From Pantoea eucrina (GTDB lineage Bacteria > Pseudomonadota > Gammaproteobacteria > Enterobacterales > Enterobacteriaceae): a stretch of DNA of 64,000 nucleotides. Of the stretch, positions 26,401 through 32,851 are shown one piece after another. Every line of letters starts with the position of its first letter. Position 1 is the stretch's first letter. The translations under genes were made by a program, and so were the position numbers. The notes below the pieces were generated by a model. That model was not told where the DNA came from. It saw only the letters and a program-made list of their open reading frames with translations, and did not search any database. The stretch is taken from assembly GCF_002095385.1 (NCBI RefSeq), contig NZ_MIPP01000005.1:62001-126000 (forward strand), given 5' to 3'.

Positions 26401-27062
26401 TCGTCTTTGACATATTTACGCAGCGCCTGCCGCAGCGGCGGGCGCAGATCGCGGACATTGTCCAGTACCCAGCGCAGATAACCCGGATCGCGGCGCGCAA
26501 TAGCGCTGATACTCTGTCCGCGATATTTGCCAAATGGAAAGATATCTCCGGAGAGCGCAGCCGGTTCAGTCCGGCTTACCATCTCTGCCGGACTCCAGCC
26601 GGAGATCTCCATAATACGGATCAGCAGCGCGGCGGTAACGTAGCAGTCATAAAGCGCGCGGTGTGCATGCAGGTCTGCAGGCGGCGTCACCTCAAGTTTC
26701 AGGCTGTGCCGCAGCGCCTGATTACCATATTTAATGCCGGGCCACAGTTTGCGCGCCAGCGTCATGGTGCAGATCCATTCGCCCGGCATGGCGGGCAGCA
26801 TGCGGCGGTCAAAGCTGGCGTTGTGAGCCACATAGTGCGGGCTGCCGTGATAGCGGCTGATGATCGCTTCTATCGGCGGTTTATCCGCCACCATCGCTTC
26901 TGTGATGCGGTGCACCATCATTGCCTGACGGCTGATAGGGCGATCCGGGCAGACCAGATCGCTCATCGGATTGACTATCTGCCCGTCAATAACATCCACG
27001 GAGGCGATCTCTACCACGCCGCCCTGCAGGCCGCAGGTTTCTGTATCTATCACGCGTAACAT
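26394..27062 (-). CDS. exoX: Exodeoxyribonuclease X
   Basis: 222 residues (E. coli 220). A DnaQ-family 3'-5' exonuclease acting in mismatch repair and recombination. The DEDDh acids are visible in [10 protein letters not shown] and [10 protein letters not shown], with HRALYDCY for the last acid. The C-terminal region [15 protein letters not shown] resembles the DUF3820/ExoX C-terminal segment. It is convergent with ptrB, overlapping its stop by 7 bases, and lies 3 bases from holE's end, so holE-exoX probably share a transcript. Confidence 0.94.
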
Positions 27063-27065
27063 AGG

Positions 27066-27296
27066 TTATTTCTGCTTAGGTTCGTAGGGCAGGCGGGAAA
27101 GGCTGAGCGAAGCCTGACGATAGTGCATCAGGCGCTGGCGGAACCAGTCGCGCAGCGCTTCCGGCTGCTCGCGTTCAACCATCTCCGCCACGACCGGCAT
27201 ATTGTAGCGCTCTTTGAACGCGACGCCTGCCGCCGCCAGCTCAACGTTGACTTTGTCTTTCTCTTCCTGCGACAGCTGTGCAAGATTATAACGCAT
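27066..27296 (-). CDS. holE: DNA polymerase III subunit theta
   Basis: 76 residues from [12 protein letters not shown], the same length as E. coli HolE. The open frame reaches an ATG at 27356, but AGGAG lies just before 27296 and homology starts there. Theta binds and stabilises the proofreading subunit epsilon in the polymerase III core. Conserved stretches are [21 protein letters not shown], split here as [11 protein letters not shown] and [10 protein letters not shown], and SRLPYEPK. Confidence 0.94.
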
Positions 27297-27490
27297 GCTT
27301 TTCTCCTGATAATCAGCGGCAAAAATAATGGTTTCATGCAGCAGGATCAAGGGCAACCGGATCGCACTGCAGGTCTCGACACGCTGAATCGGGCGGCGTA
27401 TCCTGCTGCCACATCAGCGGCAGCGCCGGAAAACCCGCCGGGTAATCTGTCTGCCTGCCGTGTCAGTGAAGATGAAATGAGGTCAATATT

Positions 27491-27835
27491 TTGCTGAAAA
27501 AAGTGATTCCTGCCTGCCTGCTGCTGGCGCTCTGCAGCCAGGCGCTGGCGGGCGAAATTATTACGGTCAGTCGTTTTGAAATCGGTAAGGCAAAGTGGCC
27601 CTTCACGCGTGAAGAGGTGATGCTGACCTGTGAAAAGGATGGCGCACTGTTTGCCATTAACCCCAGCACGCTACTGCAGTATCCGCTGAATGAAAAAGCG
27701 CTGGCGCGTGCCGATGCGGGGCAGGGCACGCTGCAGTCGATTAATACTATCCTGGCAGATGATAAGGCGCATCCCGGCAGTAAAATGTCGCTGCAGCCGA
27801 TTATCGATCGCGCGCAGCAGCTGTGCGTTAAGTAA
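27491..27835 (+). CDS. yebY: YebY, DUF2511 periplasmic protein
   Basis: 114 residues with a TTG start (GAGG eight bases upstream). A signal peptide MLKKVIPACLLLALCSQALAG is followed by EIITVSRFEIGK, WPFTREEVMLTC, and INPSTLLQYPLN, all matching E. coli YebY; two cysteines (LTC and QLC) could form a disulfide. In E. coli yebY sits with yobA (CopC-like) and yebZ (CopD-like) in a copper-responsive operon. Here only about 190 bases separate holE and yebY, so both partners are absent. Confidence 0.88.
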   Translation: MLKKVIPACLLLALCSQALAGEIITVSRFEIGKAKWPFTREEVMLTCEKDGALFAINPSTLLQYPLNEKALARADAGQGTLQSINTILADDKAHPGSKMSLQPIIDRAQQLCVK

Positions 27836-27955
27836 AAGCCGGCAGACGCCGCCGTCAAAAAGCGTTGCAGGCGTCTGGTAGTGCCAGCGCGATCACAGAG
27901 TTGGCAGCTTTCCGGCTCGCCTCAGGCTGCTTGCTGGACAATGTTCGCCGTTGGA

Positions 27956-27962
27956 CTACCTT
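27956..27962 (+). promoter_or_regulatory. Probable sigma-S -10 element of sdsR
   Basis: CTACCTT lies seven bases before the likely 5' end of SdsR. E. coli sdsR is one of the most strongly sigma-S-dependent sRNAs; the match to the CTATACT consensus is partial. Confidence 0.55.
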
Positions 27963-27968
27963 TAAAAG

Positions 27969-28067
27969 GCAAGGCACCTCGCCTTCAAAAATGCCAACTT
28001 TTAGCGCACGGCTCACTACGAGCCATTTCCCTGGACCCGATACAGGAATCGTATTGGGTCTTTTTTT
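27969..28067 (+). ncRNA. sdsR: SdsR (RyeB) small RNA
   Basis: About 99 bases starting GCAAGGC. The conserved core is present almost unchanged: ATGCCAACTTTTAGCGCACG, then GGCTC...GAGCC, then CATTTCCCTGG, then the terminator stem GACCCGATAC/GTATTGGGTC with seven T residues. SdsR is an Hfq-binding, sigma-S-dependent sRNA that represses ompD, mutS, tolC and other mRNAs. Its position beside yebY is the same as in E. coli and Salmonella. The antisense RNA SraC/RyeA is expected on the minus strand across this locus but has no obvious motif of its own. Confidence 0.95.
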
Positions 28068-28209
28068 AACTGGTTGTTATCGAAAGATAACTCAGGGGTT
28101 TCCCAGCATTTACCCGACATCTCACTCCGGACGGCACTCGCACTGGTTCTGAACAGGTAAATCCAGGCGTTAGCGGATAGTCAGTCAGCTACCTGACAGA
28201 ACAGAAGCG

Positions 28210-28965
28210 TTATCCCTTTCCCTGATCCACTATTTTATAAAACAGTGGAACGATCGCTCGCCGGAAACGATGTTTTAACCTGGCTTTTAACGGTCGTGAT
28301 GACATAAGTTGATTCCAGATAACCTTTTTTTGCCGGGCAATCTCACTCATATCATTATTACTGTTTATTGTAGACTGGCTGGCCTCTTCGGAGAGCTGAA
28401 CCGGATGCGGGACCACCGAAAAAACGCTTACAAACGCGTGCTCTGCAAAAAGCGTCCATTTATCTGCAGTGATCCAGACAGGATGCAGGTTTTTTAAGAG
28501 AGATTGCGCGGCTTTGTGGTTAATTACGTATGAGTGAGTGGTGGTGGCCTGCAGCGTTTTATGCAGAGTATGTTTATGGGTTAAATGAGAGACAGGCGAT
28601 AATAAATAACTGTTTGCACGGCTAAAAAGGATCACTTCTGGTCTGTGGCTGGCGGGCTTTATTTTTTCCAGTACGTCCCTGGCTTCGCGAGTGAAAATAA
28701 TGTCATCTTCCAGAATCATTGCCGCTTCAATATTGCTGTCGACGATTTTCTGGTAAATTTTTTGATGACTTAATGCGCACCCAATCTCTCCGGGTAAAAA
28801 TGCGTAATTAATCGGTGCACTTGCGGCAGCTCTTTCATCGGCTGTCATGAGCGTGCCATCGACCGCTTCGACAAATTCGTAATCAAGATTAAGTGCATCA
28901 AGCTGGGATGCAATTTTATTCCGTCTTTCGACCGATCTTTTTAAGTTTACAATAAAAATTTTCAT
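28210..28965 (-). CDS. Glycosyltransferase family 25 (LPS/LOS type)
   Basis: 251 residues. The start MKIFIVNLKRS(V)ERR and the acidic LEDDIIF motif (Glu86-Asp88) with CALSHQKIYQ are typical of GT25, which transfers galactose or similar sugars to lipooligosaccharide in Haemophilus and Neisseria (LpsA/Lex2/LgtB group). The C-terminal part is basic (RPLKARLKHRFRRAI), as in membrane-associated transferases. Codon use is clearly AT-richer than the neighbours, and E. coli has no gene here, so it is probably acquired. No other LPS genes are nearby, so donor and acceptor are unknown. Confidence 0.82.
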   Translation of the reverse strand: MKIFIVNLKRSVERRNKIASQLDALNLDYEFVEAVDGTLMTADERAAASAPINYAFLPGEIGCALSHQKIYQKIVDSNIEAAMILEDDIIFTREARDVLEKIKPASHRPEVILFSRANSYLLSPVSHLTHKHTLHKTLQATTTHSYVINHKAAQSLLKNLHPVWITADKWTLFAEHAFVSVFSVVPHPVQLSEEASQSTINSNNDMSEIARQKKVIWNQLMSSRPLKARLKHRFRRAIVPLFYKIVDQGKG

Positions 28966-29295
28966 TATCTGCCGTGCGCGATGTGCGGTTCCTTTACATT
29001 CCTGACCTGAATAATGCAGATATTATCATATAAACAATCTTGCTGAGTATAAGGCCTCAGCCGGTAACTGGCTCCGTTCTGTAGTTTATAAACCGGACAA
29101 AACAGGTTAAAAGTTTGCCTTATTGCTGAAACAGGCTACGCTTAAAGGGTGACAACTCAATGCGCCGTATCTAACGACGGACTGTTTGCTAATCAATGAT
29201 GATCAACAGGCGCACCAATTCAGGGCTCTGCTTCGGCAGGGCCTTTCCTTTGCCCGCTGTTGCCCGCAAAGCGCGCGCAGCAGCGGGTAAAGCGC
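28966..29295. other. AT-rich spacer behind the GT25 gene
   Basis: No protein gene seen. It contains the GT25 upstream region and a promoter-plus-hairpin unit on the plus strand (listed as a candidate sRNA). Confidence 0.5.
29149..29250 (+). ncRNA. Candidate small RNA
   Basis: A promoter-like pair, TTGCCT at 29115-29120 and TACGCT at 29137-29142 with 16-base spacing, is followed about 80 bases later by a stem GGCTCTGC/GCAGGGCC closed by a UUCG tetraloop (29224-29243) and TTTCCTTT. The -10 also fits the sigma-S form CTACGCTT. No open frame explains the unit. The interrupted T tract makes the terminator imperfect, and I recognise no known sRNA. Confidence 0.35.
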
Positions 29296-29361
29296 TCACT
29301 CCAGCAGATAAATACCTGCAACGAGTGTGCCTACAGAAATAATGTGCAGTAGCTCAGTCAT
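29296..29361 (-). CDS. Small membrane peptide, 21 residues
   Basis: MTELLHIISVGTLVAGIYLLE is a single hydrophobic helix. GGGAGGG lies seven bases before the ATG, a near-perfect ribosome-binding site, which is the main support for it being real. It resembles in form the single-helix small proteins of enterics (KdpF-like and similar), but I cannot name it. It is too short for normal gene callers. Confidence 0.5.
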   Translation of the reverse strand: MTELLHIISVGTLVAGIYLLE

Positions 29362-29742
29362 GGTTCGCCCTCCCGGATATGTACAGACAAAGTCAAGGAC
29401 GGATATCACACTTCGTCAAATTTAATCATGGCGGGTGATTATTCTGAAACAGCATTATCGCCCTGCGTTTTGTCTGAATTCAGCGTGACGGCGGTGACGC
29501 TGACAGACCGCTAACTGATTAAGTTCAGAGAATAAAGTGGTTTACCTGCCGCACTAACTTCAGGTTGCGCTGTCTCAGTTACAGATGTTTTAGTCCGTAT
29601 CGATCTTAAAAACACAGCAAAACTCTTTTTTTGTACTATATTGTTATAGCAAAGGGTGAGTTTTGTAAAAAAGAGTCATGCTGTACCCTTAACAATAAAC
29701 AGACAGGCCGCGAAAGGCCGTTTTAAACCAAAGGATATAAAA
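29362..29742. other. Spacer and probable leader before the YmcF-like gene
   Basis: Holds no other recognisable gene. The last 100 bases are AT-rich (GTACTATATTGTTATAG) and then carry a small stem AGGCC/GGCCG-type hairpin at about 29704-29720. This would fit a promoter and structured 5' leader as in cold-shock genes, but no cold-box match was found. Confidence 0.4.
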
Positions 29743-29940
29743 ATTATTTCAGTTTCAATTTCTATGCGTTGCCCTCACTGTCTGGGCTCGCAGTATCGCA
29801 AATCCGCATTTGACGTTTCTGAGAAGAATCCGGCGGGTGCTAAGTGCATATTCTGTAAAACAGCGATGGTTGCTCTTAACCCTGCGGCGATGAATACGTT
29901 AGCTAAGCTTAAAATGAATAACGATATGCTTCACAGATAA
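29743..29940 (+). CDS. YmcF/YnfQ-like zinc-ribbon small protein, probable AUU start
   Basis: 65 residues if started at the ATT at 29743. Four cysteines in two pairs (MRCPHCLGSQYR and GAKCIFCKTAM) form a zinc ribbon, and the segment SAFDVSEKNPAGAKCIFCK matches my memory of E. coli YmcF and YnfQ, small cold-shock proteins. Start choice: AAAGGA at 29730-29735 is seven bases before ATT at 29743; the first in-frame ATG (29764) has no ribosome-binding site and would remove the residues before MRCPHC. A longer open frame back to a TTG-class codon at 29656 lacks homology. From memory, the E. coli relatives also use a non-AUG start. A bidirectional terminator follows. Confidence 0.72.
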   Translation: MISVSISMRCPHCLGSQYRKSAFDVSEKNPAGAKCIFCKTAMVALNPAAMNTLAKLKMNNDMLHR

Positions 29941-29956
29941 CCGATCTCTGCCACGC

Positions 29957-29985
29957 AAAAGGCCACCTCAGGGTGGCCTTTTTAC
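29957..29985. terminator. Bidirectional terminator after the YmcF-like gene
   Basis: Stem AAGGCCACC/GGGTGGCCTT with a TCA loop, T run on the plus strand and A run before it, so it also serves the lipoprotein gene on the minus strand. Confidence 0.85.
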
Positions 29986-30046
29986 TTTTTGCTGACGACA
30001 GCATCTATCCCGATGGCTACAGAATAATCCAGCGCCTGGCAGGCGC

Positions 30047-30217
30047 TCAGGCTTCAGGCTGGCCTGCCGGGCCTTTACTCATCGGCCCGCCGGGCACCGG
30101 ATGCTCCATCGGCGGAGCAGGGCGGCCATCCGGACCCAGCGGGCGTTCCGGCTGCTGACAACCGGCCAGCATCAGCAGGCTGGCAGAGATAATTAATCCA
30201 CTAAAAAACAGCTTCAT
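30047..30217 (-). CDS. Small proline-rich lipoprotein, unknown function
   Basis: 56 residues. Signal peptide MKLFFSGLIISASLLMLAG ends in the lipobox LAGC with Cys20; Gln at +2 predicts sorting to the outer membrane. The mature part is 37 residues rich in Pro and Gly (LGPDGRPAPP, VPGGPMSKGP). AAGGAG lies seven bases before the ATG. I cannot assign a family. It is too short for the usual callers but the lipobox, ribosome-binding site and downstream terminator agree. Confidence 0.72.
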   Translation of the reverse strand: MKLFFSGLIISASLLMLAGCQQPERPLGPDGRPAPPMEHPVPGGPMSKGPAGQPEA

Positions 30218-30386
30218 CAGAGACTCCTTGATTAACAGGCAACCCGGCGTTGCACATTAACCCTAGCTGATAAATCTGTGCGCTGACGGCAGCGGCTGGC
30301 TTAATTTTATCGTCCTGATTAAAACAGCTGTAAGGCCAGATTTTTATCTCAGACGTCGCCATTCATGGCGTCATTGCTTCTGTTGC

Positions 30387-30394
30387 CTATACTT
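30387..30394 (+). promoter_or_regulatory. Sigma-S-type -10 element before the 68-residue acidic protein
   Basis: CTATACTT is an exact match to the sigma-S -10 consensus (preceded by GC). It stands 25 bases before the start codon, giving a very short leader. Confidence 0.6.
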
Positions 30395-30419
30395 AGGTTC
30401 TTGATGACAGGAGGCGAAC

Positions 30420-30626
30420 ATGTTCAAACATAACAGTAATGAAGAGCGTAAACATGAGGGCGATGTAGCCAAAGGATTGCCTGAAGCGGCCCCCTCTGCC
30501 GGAAATGCGTATGAAGAGGATGACCATCCGGTTCAGGACGCGCCGGATGAGCATGGCGAAATTCCCCGTACGCGTGACAGCAGTGAAGATGAAAAGAAAG
30601 ATCCCTGGGAAGATAAAGGGAAATAA
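30420..30626 (+). CDS. Small acidic hydrophilic protein, unknown
   Basis: 68 residues (MFKHNSNEERKHEGD...), highly charged with many Glu, Asp and Lys, no hydrophobic segment and little predicted structure. CAGGAGG lies six bases before the ATG. Composition and the sigma-S-like promoter directly upstream suggest a stationary-phase or stress protein, but this is inference; I recognise no family. Confidence 0.65.
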   Translation: MFKHNSNEERKHEGDVAKGLPEAAPSAGNAYEEDDHPVQDAPDEHGEIPRTRDSSEDEKKDPWEDKGK

Positions 30627-30724
30627 CGCGTAGACGCTAAATAAGAGTGGTGTGACATTTATCTTTTTTTCTGCGGCTGGCGCACATATCCCTCAGGCTG
30701 CCGCAGAGCGTCAGACAGCAGTGC

Positions 30725-30732
30725 CTATACTG
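30725..30732 (+). promoter_or_regulatory. Sigma-S-type -10 element before the 45-residue acidic protein
   Basis: CTATACTG preceded by GC, in the same setting (GTGCCTATACT) as the element at 30387, 31 bases before the next small gene. Confidence 0.55.
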
Positions 30733-30763
30733 AAAATACCCAACCCAGGGTCAGGAGGTAAAT

Positions 30764-30901
30764 ATGTCAGAACGTCCAGAAGATATTCAGCCTATCCCCG
30801 ATGATGGACAGGCACCCGGTGCAGATGAAGATTTGCCCATGGATGACGGTGCTGTGCCCAATGATGACGCGCTTCCTGTGGATGACACGCGCAGAATCTG
30901 A
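30764..30901 (+). CDS. Small very acidic protein, 45 residues
   Basis: MSERPEDIQPIPDDGQ followed by repeating Asp/Pro units (DEDLPMDDGAVPNDD, ALPVDDTRRI). About 13 Asp/Glu against four Arg. CAGGAGG lies six bases before the ATG, and an intrinsic terminator follows. The loose repeat PxDDG/PxDD is visible three or four times. No family recognised; probably disordered. Confidence 0.62.
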   Translation: MSERPEDIQPIPDDGQAPGADEDLPMDDGAVPNDDALPVDDTRRI

Positions 30902-30926
30902 TCGGGATGTATTTACCACTCAGTTA

Positions 30927-30958
30927 ACCCGTATGGCCTGACACTATACGGGTTTTTT
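30927..30958 (+). terminator. Intrinsic terminator after the 45-residue acidic protein
   Basis: Stem AACCCGTAT/ATACGGGTT with an 9-base loop and a T run. Confidence 0.8.
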
Positions 30959-31068
30959 AATGAGCGCTTCTCTGGCTGTACCTGAGATCGGGAAAGAGTA
31001 AAGCAGCGTTATACTGCCTGAAATGGTATAAAATGCCCTGGTTTCGTATATTTCAGGACAGATCATTA

Positions 31069-31236
31069 ATGGCAGATACACACTATTTACTTTGGGTAAT
31101 GACAGGGACGCTGACCATCCTCAGCCTGTTTATTGGTGCAATTGTCGGACAGGCAAAAACCCGCCGGCTGGGTATGATGACCTTTACCGGTCTCTGGGCA
31201 TTTTTTATGCTGGCAATATTTTTGATAACCCGCTAA
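31069..31236 (+). CDS. Small membrane protein, 55 residues
   Basis: MADTHYLLWVMTGTLTILSLFIG begins the protein; two hydrophobic helices (about 6-26 and 36-53) are joined by a short basic loop QAKTRRLG. AGGACAG lies nine bases before the ATG. An ATG at 31033 would add 12 residues but is poorly placed. Function unknown. Its stop overlaps the end of a convergent membrane-peptide gene by four bases. Confidence 0.62.
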   Translation: MADTHYLLWVMTGTLTILSLFIGAIVGQAKTRRLGMMTFTGLWAFFMLAIFLITR

Positions 31237-31340
31237 CCCACTATCAGCAGATGCACCAGCCGGGCCAGCGATTCCAGCAGCAGCAGGCTGCCGGTCACCA
31301 GCATAATCAACACAATGATAAACTGCTTACGGCCTTTCAT
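31233..31340 (-). CDS. Small membrane peptide, 35 residues
   Basis: A short basic start (MKGRKQ) is followed by one long hydrophobic helix (FIIVLIMLVTGSLLLLE) and a second amphipathic part (SLARLVHLLIVG). GGAG lies eight bases before the ATG. The arrangement resembles enteric single-helix proteins such as YniD, but identity is not certain. It lies downstream of rsmF on the same strand (gap about 90 bases) and could be the last gene of that transcript. Confidence 0.52.
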   Translation of the reverse strand: MKGRKQFIIVLIMLVTGSLLLLESLARLVHLLIVG

Positions 31341-31432
31341 GCTGTGCTCTCCATGGCGACGCCATACCGGCATTACACTATGCCGGTTGGGTTAAACTAA
31401 CGCTCAACCATCAGATTATGAGCCGCAGCCTG

Positions 31433-32851
31433 CTAGCGAAACAGCCGGCCGTCACGCACCAGCTCGCGCGGATAGCTGTTTTTAATGCGGTTGCCCACTT
31501 TTTTAGCCAGTCCAAGCGGCTGCTGCTGCCAGGTGACGATGACTTCATCCCGGTCAGGCAGTGTCTCCGGATGGATATCCTGTCCGCGATACCAGCTTTC
31601 CGCTTCCGCTTCATTCAGCGCAAACGCCAGCGATGCATCAGGCCTGGCCAGTGCCATCACCGCCTCATGCTGCCAGCGGTAGCCTTTGGGAAAGGTTTCA
31701 GCCAGTTTCAGACCAATGCGTGAGAAGCGCACCTTATTCAGCCACTGCTCTGCGCTGGCCGGAAACAGCCACAGCTCTTTATCGCGCTGCCAGAGCGTCA
31801 GGCTCTCATCCCACTGCAGGCCCACCTTAGCCGCTGCCTGCATCACCTCCGCGCTGAGTTTTCGGCTGGCGGGCGCAAACGGCAGTTTCCCGAGTTTATA
31901 GCCCGGCGCCGGCAGTGCCGGCACGCTGGCGGTTTTACGCAGACGCGCGACGAAAAATCCTTCGCTGTCGAAGCAGTGAGGAAACACGTGCAGATAGCCT
32001 TCCGGCGTCAGGGCAGCCTCTGCGCCGGCAAACAAATCCTGCAGCGACAGGATCTCAATGGCGTCGGGATAGCGTGTCAGCAACCAGGCTATGACCTGCT
32101 GATTCTCAATGGTGTTAAGGGTACAGGTTGAGTAGATCAGCACGCCACCGGGCCTGAGCGCGTGAAAAGCGCTGTCGATAAGATCGCGCTGGGTGGCCGC
32201 AATCGCCTCGGTGCTGGCCAGCGTCCAGTTGCGCAGCGCATCTGCATCTTTACGCACCACGCCTTCGCCTGAGCAGGGAGCATCAAGCAGGATGGCGTCG
32301 AACTGTTCCGGCAGCGCTGCGCCAAACACCCGGCCATCGAAATGCGTCAGCGCCACGTTGCTGACGCCGCAGCGGCTGATATTGGCATGAAGGACTTTGA
32401 CCCGGCTGGCGGAGTATTCATTGGCGAGGATCGCGCCGCGATTATGCATCAGCGCCGCCAGCTGCGTGGTTTTGGATCCCGGTGCCGCCGCCATATCCAT
32501 AACCTGCTGTGCGTCCGGCGCGGCGGCAAACAGCGCCGTCACCGGCAGCATCGAGCTCGCTTCCTGAATGTAGAACAGACCGCTAAGATGTTCAGCCACG
32601 CTGCCAAGCGGCAGGCTCTCATCATCGCGCTCGATCCAGAATCCCTCTGCGCACCAGGGAACCGGCGTCAGCCGCCAGCCATACTGCGCCGTGCGGGCAA
32701 GAAAATCAGCCACGCTGATCTTCAGCGTGTTGACGCGTACACTTTTGCGCAGCGGCTGCTGGCTGATAGCAAGAAAGCGTTGCAGTTCAGCCTCATCAGG
32801 GAGGCTGGCACGCATGAGGGTAATGAACTCTTCAGGAAAACGACTGGACAC
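31433..32851 (-). CDS. rsmF: 16S rRNA m5C1407 methyltransferase RsmF
   Basis: 472 residues (E. coli 479). Methylates C1407 of 16S rRNA with SAM. The NOL1/NOP2/Sun core shows [11 protein letters not shown] (cofactor loop), [11 protein letters not shown] with one catalytic cysteine, and IYSTCTLN with the second. The N-terminal domain contains [14 protein letters not shown]; the C-terminal half carries the PUA-like domain ([12 protein letters not shown]). It lies downstream of letAB in the same direction. Confidence 0.96.

Follow-up and report, generated by a model that had tools for sequence, protein, structure and literature searches.

The window, a 64-kb stretch of Pantoea DNA, carries at 29743-29940 (plus strand) a ymcF-like coding sequence for a small protein of 65 residues with a CPxC...CxxC ribbon. 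The features of the locus, all on the plus strand, are the following.

29743-29940, plus strand: ymcF-like coding sequence with an ATT initiator and a TAA stop codon at 29938-29940, identified by PF23641, its translation and a synonymous-biased divergence from P. eucrina.
29743-29745, plus strand: inferred initiator codon AUU; the aligned codon is ATT in 20 of 25 Pantoea loci, and 72 of 181 family loci have no possible ATG, GTG or TTG.
29730-29735, plus strand: Shine-Dalgarno sequence AAAGGA, at an aligned spacing of 5 to the ATT, scored here and also found in P. eucrina.
29770-29781, plus strand: first predicted metal-binding knuckle, codons C10 to C13 (CPHC), with both cysteines invariant in 24 aligned sequences.
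29845-29856, plus strand: second predicted metal-binding knuckle, codons C35 to C38 (CIFC), with both cysteines invariant in the same number of aligned sequences (24).
29656-29658, plus strand: rejected start codon GTG; the stretch from it to the ATT is not conserved as protein.
29764-29766, plus strand: rejected start codon ATG, with no Shine-Dalgarno sequence upstream; its use would remove residues 1-7.
29615-29672, plus strand: leader or promoter-like block of 58 nt (role inferred), identical to P. eucrina and without a csp open reading frame.
29957-29982, plus strand: intrinsic terminator-like hairpin of 11 pairs followed by a T-rich tail, the stem being largely kept in P. eucrina.

Against the Pfam model PF23641 (YmcF-like), the window protein scored 72 bits (E 4.8e-20; gathering cut-off 27 bits), which places it in this family and bears out the kinship with YmcF claimed in the original prediction. 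The four putative metal-ligand cysteines, arranged as CPxC...C(I)FC, agree with this assignment; all of them are among the ten positions that were invariant in 20 diverse family sequences, and through them the protein probably binds a metal. A weak profile similarity over the ribbon was also seen to the ECs_2282 putative zinc-binding proteins (NF047912), but the score of 19.4 bits is below the curated cut-off of 37, and the protein is not a member of that family. The genome to which the window belongs has one strong PF23641 copy and one weak match (E 0.69), and the best PHROGs match of the window protein had an E value of 0.083. An IMG/VR contig encodes an identical protein (100%), and P. eucrina, to which the window is closest among named relatives, shows 95% protein identity and, over 3.3 kb, 88.9% DNA identity to the window.

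In the AlphaFold2 model of the window protein (mean pLDDT 77.3), residues 2-4, which are encoded directly after the ATT, lie in a strand. No PDB structure was matched at E ≤ 0.001 (best Foldseek E 2.6), and no PDB sequence was matched better than E 0.024, all of these sequence matches being to proteins of other kinds. In the VIA comparison, 3 of the 78 chains had a Z of at least 2, the best being a pre-initiation-complex chain (Z 2.5, rmsd 2.1, 37 aligned) and the second the TFIIE-alpha zinc finger 1vd4 (Z 2.3). Since no PDB structure matched at that threshold and the VIA Z values did not exceed 2.5, reading a function from the fold was abandoned. According to an excerpt of PMC13348028, YnfQ was modelled with a rubredoxin topology. 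From its association with csp, a role of YmcF in nucleic-acid binding can be guessed at.

The AUU start is already known from Escherichia coli, as ymcF and ynfQ both begin at ATT in the RefSeq sequence of MG1655, 10 nt after the stop codons of cspG and cspI, respectively; the original prediction was thus right that these two genes use a non-AUG start. YmcF (cspG-ymcF) and YnfQ (cspI-ynfQ, in the Qin prophage) share with the window protein the Pfam family, the four-cysteine ribbon, the ATT initiator and the small size, whereas the window copy has no csp in front of it and a different leader. Cold induction has been reported for both E. coli proteins, and D'Lima et al. are said to have described them in 2017 as cold-shock microproteins with ATT starts. 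A passage of PMC10191623 cites the 2017 report for its unusual start codons, and part of PMC11728337 describes ymcF and ynfQ as down-regulated in butanol-exposed E. coli together with cspG, cspH and cspI. The ymcF stretch was matched in 5361 of the 5426 complete E. coli genomes. Nine phage records also matched E. coli-type YmcF, with no feature annotated under the match in six of them. Escherichia phage mEp460_ev081 (L359) carries at 901-1065 a csp-ymcF pair in which csp is annotated and ymcF is not.

AUU starts are generally treated as a peculiarity of infC and pcnB. For the window gene, the original prediction had placed the feature at 29730-29940, with AAAGGA in front of an ATT at 29743, and these coordinates were correct; it had also held that no ATG, GTG or TTG fits, which needs a correction, since GTG 29656 and ATG 29764 do occur in the open frame, even though neither is a fitting start. 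The motif AAGGA-N6-8-ATT was found twice in the 64-kb window, against 3.45 occurrences expected. At this chance level, the pattern was dropped as stand-alone evidence, and the significance of the start comes from homology and comparison.

For the comparison, genomes with PF23641 matches were sampled at the level of the order (394 genomes, 21 with a match), the family (392, 132 with a match) and the genus (61, 49 with a match), the samples overlapping, and 181 of the 191 loci collected were analysed. Three loci were skipped, namely the weak match in the window's own genome (L002), a duplicate of the window locus (L015) and one below the cut-off (L023), and seven without a match to the ribbon pattern were excluded (L027, L097, L111, L164, L189, L190 and L191). 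Weaker second matches below the Pfam cut-off in the family- and genus-level searches lay outside the locus set. A further set of named loci (80 kept of 211), outside the 181, supplied the names and the Kluyvera loci and was used in the structure alignment and for some of the synteny check.

In 72 of the 181 family loci there was no in-frame ATG, GTG or TTG between the upstream stop codon and the first ribbon cysteine, and the best codon by Shine-Dalgarno spacing in these loci was ATT in 54, ATC in 11, ATA in one and unassigned in six. The same test, applied to the neighbouring csp genes as a control, found none without a canonical start (0/112). The Shine-Dalgarno rule alone chose ATT over ATG in 26 of the 112 csp genes, so that spacing by itself over-calls ATT, and we relied instead on the absence of canonical codons. 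Within the E. coli-like subfamily (67 loci, 23 genus codes), the codon 24 nt before the first cysteine (-24) begins with AT in 60 loci, against 24 and 11 of the 67 for the flanking codons at -27 and -21; codon -12 is also AT-rich (56/67), because it usually encodes Ile. Five Kluyvera loci have ATC, ATC, ATG, ATT and ATG at -24, in similar surroundings, and such exchanges also mark this codon as the initiator.

The Pantoea comparison covered the 25 of 48 loci with the N-terminal type of the window, including the window itself and its P. eucrina-like twin. At the alignment position of 29743, here -27, the codon was ATT in 20 of them, GTT in two, ACG in two and TCT in one. At the position aligned with 29746, where the window has a second ATT, 15 loci had ATT or ATC and the others AAT, AAG, AGC, ACG or ACC, which suggests that 29746 is a less likely start than 29743. 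Between the window and P. eucrina, the 65 codons from the ATT on differ by seven synonymous and three nonsynonymous changes, a small number from a single pair.

The same pair, with equally small numbers, bears on the GTG at 29656, from which the frame is open and would give a protein of 94 residues with a longer N-terminus; the 3-nt difference in length from P. eucrina also leaves this frame open. However, among the 29 codons from the GTG to the ATT, two are gapped and seven of the eight differing ungapped codons are nonsynonymous (one synonymous), many relatives have an in-frame stop codon 21-45 nt from the first Cys codon, and AAAGG abuts the GTG directly, so that we regard initiation there as highly improbable. 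The ATG at 29764, which would give 58 residues, is the sole ATG shortly upstream of the ribbon, and several Pantoea loci likewise have an ATG 6 nt ahead of their first Cys codon. Against its use, many Pantoea loci have neither its equivalent nor any other canonical start, it has no Shine-Dalgarno sequence, the single change in 29743-29763 relative to P. eucrina is synonymous, and residues 2-4, modelled as part of a strand, would be dropped; a start at this ATG thus seems quite unlikely. Initiation at AUU in this host is to be expected, because ATT is also the start of infC in the same genome, where an in-frame stop lies five codons upstream of it, a Shine-Dalgarno sequence in between and the conserved protein after it. 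Judged from these comparisons, the rare codon AUU at 29743 is the most likely start of the window gene, which would then share the non-AUG (AUU/AUC) initiator of the YmcF/YnfQ class.

With regard to gene order, the 181 loci comprised 113 directly behind an intact cspA-type open reading frame, 64 uncoupled and four with a broken csp. The last group (L005, L058, L070 and L073) was reclassed for the coupling counts, as were L096, taken as uncoupled since some 200 nt separate its ymcF from the end of the csp, and L186, taken as csp-coupled. In L186 the csp gene apparently starts at TTG, in an ATTTTG context, which would be another non-AUG start in the same type of operon. L005, whose named counterpart L226 (Citrobacter sedlakii NBRC 105722) has the same start region, is a natural csp-YmcF read-through, in which a csp without its own stop codon runs in frame into ymcF, with an altered csp core and an ATG at the position of the YmcF initiator. 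The survey shows that, as read from these loci, the family uses AUU/AUC starts and usually lies directly behind a cspA-type gene, a position that is common and not defining.

The window copy does not have this position, as no csp was matched within 500 nt upstream (tblastn, E 1e-4). The genome has four csp-domain (CSD) genes at other places, of which one is in the window, some 15.5 kb downstream. In a synteny check of 42 relatives' loci, 11 had csp-ymcF next to yebY and/or the small protein at 31033, and all 11 are csp-coupled; five loci were near the small protein at 30420 only, and none of the neighbours of the window gene was found within 3-5 kb in the remaining 26. Three Pantoea loci (L058, L070 and L073) have an intact ymcF directly behind a csp whose frame is interrupted or altered, and the start regions of L058 and L070 recur in L200 and L201. 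No csp relic was detectable in the window leader by local alignment to the csp regions of seven relatives, for which 98 (L058), 176 (L070), 108 (L073), 10 (L063), 130 (L174), 48 (L053) and 87 (L276) of 200 dinucleotide shuffles matched or beat the alignment, only L063 coming near a signal. Because no relic is visible, the loss of csp is deduced from synteny and from the broken csp genes of relatives; this lineage has probably lost csp and retained ymcF together with its ATT.

The block at 29615-29672 is flanked on both sides by sequence less similar to P. eucrina. Had it diverged as fast as the ymcF open reading frame (10 differences per 195 nt), the block would be expected to show about three differences, and none was seen. 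A sigma-70 promoter scan of 29300-30100 found nothing on the plus strand. The leader block, together with the terminator-like hairpin downstream, suggests that ymcF probably has its own transcript. An RNA thermosensor in the leader was considered and set aside, as the fold z-score of -1.47 is not notable and none of the three Rfam matches at E ≤ 1 in 27000-32000 was of csp type.

Further upstream, the small RNA genes SraC/RyeA and SdsR/RyeB lie on opposite strands at 27931-28071, and a glycosyltransferase family 25 (LPS-type) gene at 28210-28965 (minus strand) is placed between sdsR and ymcF. IMG/VR contig L279 is homologous to the window from 28051 on. This boundary lies within the SraC/RyeA-SdsR/RyeB locus and suggests that prophages insert at this place.

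The absence of csp in the window and its breakage in three relatives, as well as the 12 of 61 genomes of the genus without a PF23641 match, would also suit a decaying relic in which ymcF is not made any more. Such decay is, however, difficult to reconcile with the intact ribbon, with the conserved leader block and terminator stem and with synonymous changes in 7 of the 10 codons that differ from P. eucrina, and we give this explanation little credence. We consider it quite probable, from the sequence comparisons taken together, that the locus encodes an orphan cold-shock zinc-ribbon microprotein of the YmcF family, initiated at AUU 29743 behind the AAAGGA Shine-Dalgarno sequence and expressed from its own short transcript, which would end at the terminator at 29957.

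Across the family, the start codon was related to csp coupling. In coupled loci the csp stop codon often lies inside the ymcF Shine-Dalgarno sequence (TAAGG or TGAGG), and 88 of the 113 have no canonical codon between the csp stop codon and the ribbon (87 with AUU, AUC or AUA and one with none of these), leaving 25 that have one; among uncoupled loci, 26 of 64 have no canonical codon within 60 nt. When the search regions were nearly equalised, the counts without a canonical codon were 88 of 112 coupled versus 27 of 64 uncoupled loci. Within the E. coli-like subfamily, AUG was found at -24 in none of the 40 csp-coupled loci versus 16 of the 27 not coupled (a count that includes L005) and, by genus, in none of 16 coupled genera versus at least one locus in nine of 10 not-coupled genera. 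The three E. coli-like genera with both kinds of loci (g11, g12 and g172) point in the same direction. Ten of these 40 coupled loci, spread over five genera (g207, g127, g175, g11 and g134), do have a canonical codon elsewhere between the csp stop codon and the ribbon.

ATT or ATC still stands in some uncoupled groups, such as g176, g6, g166, g171 and g227, as well as in the window and its P. eucrina-like twin; Pantoea runs against the trend, in that the uncoupled copies L001 and L052 retain ATT. In several uncoupled YmcF subfamilies (L018-L020, L143, L144, L146-L148, L152, L156, L158-L160, L167 and L169-L171), ATC or ATT is the sole fitting start, and 16 of these 17 loci have an open frame without a canonical codon, indicating that non-AUG starts also persist without csp. 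A tree test (180 rows and 54 columns, with stars on 15 of the 161 inner branches; a single row, judged from its length to be L185, was left out) gave, on well-supported branches, one usable independent pair in the coupling-first direction (12 on all branches) and four in the reverse, start-first direction (19 on all branches). Since only one pair was usable, the association is carried by the raw and genus-level counts, and we regard it as a strong lead, not as proven.

The AUU initiator of ymcF is shared with infC, including that of the window's genome. The two differ in that infC encodes its own repressor, IF3, whose repression acts through the AUU codon, while we know of no link of YmcF to IF3. 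Another AUU start, that of RcsD-Hpt in Yersinia pestis, is supported by mutation of the codon and of the ribosome-binding site, as described in a section of PMC10191623; the protein is unrelated, and its start lies internally in a frameshifted gene.

In the ancestral csp-ymcF arrangement, the overlap of the csp stop codon with the ymcF Shine-Dalgarno sequence (UAAGG) would allow ribosomes that finish Csp to re-initiate, and the weak AUU would keep independent initiation low, so that YmcF would follow Csp synthesis in the cold. In the Pantoea lineage, csp would have been lost and AUU kept, with the AAAGGA Shine-Dalgarno sequence now present, and translation would thereby be direct. IF3 would disfavour AUU at normal temperature, and the loss of IF3 auto-repression in the cold could make AUU cold-permissive; as stated in a portion of PMC6511841, this auto-repression seems to be lost in the cold. 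IF3-dependent control of the ymcF AUU is plausible, and higher IF3 in the cold could also repress it. In the part of their study that bears on this point, Yoo and RajBhandary 2008 (PMC2268962) concluded that both initiator tRNA and IF2 play a part in E. coli re-initiation, that raised IF3 lowers re-initiation where a Shine-Dalgarno sequence is absent, and that non-canonical starts are among the initiations inhibited by raised IF3. Unlike that case without a Shine-Dalgarno sequence, ymcF has one.

We tentatively propose, as a possibility we would not yet favour, that the AUU/AUC of ymcF is a selected regulatory device, which behind a csp stop codon would need ribosomes that have finished Csp and would be cold-permissive through relaxed IF3 discrimination; lineages that lose csp would tend toward AUG, and the Pantoea orphan would keep AUU. 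Neither start-codon evolution nor a pattern of coupling and start codon in the YmcF family was described among the literature matches listed, from a search that took in at most a minority of subscription journals. The YmcF family and its AUU starts were known before, and what is added here is the orphan state and the coupling/start-codon pattern. The results suggest that gene callers limited to ATG, GTG and TTG will miss or mis-start such genes. The orphan Pantoea gene serves as a natural control in which the codon can be judged apart from the upstream cistron and, if the proposal is true, it would isolate the cold/IF3 component from the coupling component. The retention of AUU/AUC across an enteric microprotein family, together with the coupling pattern, yields a model that can be tested, in which the codon gates translational coupling in the cold.
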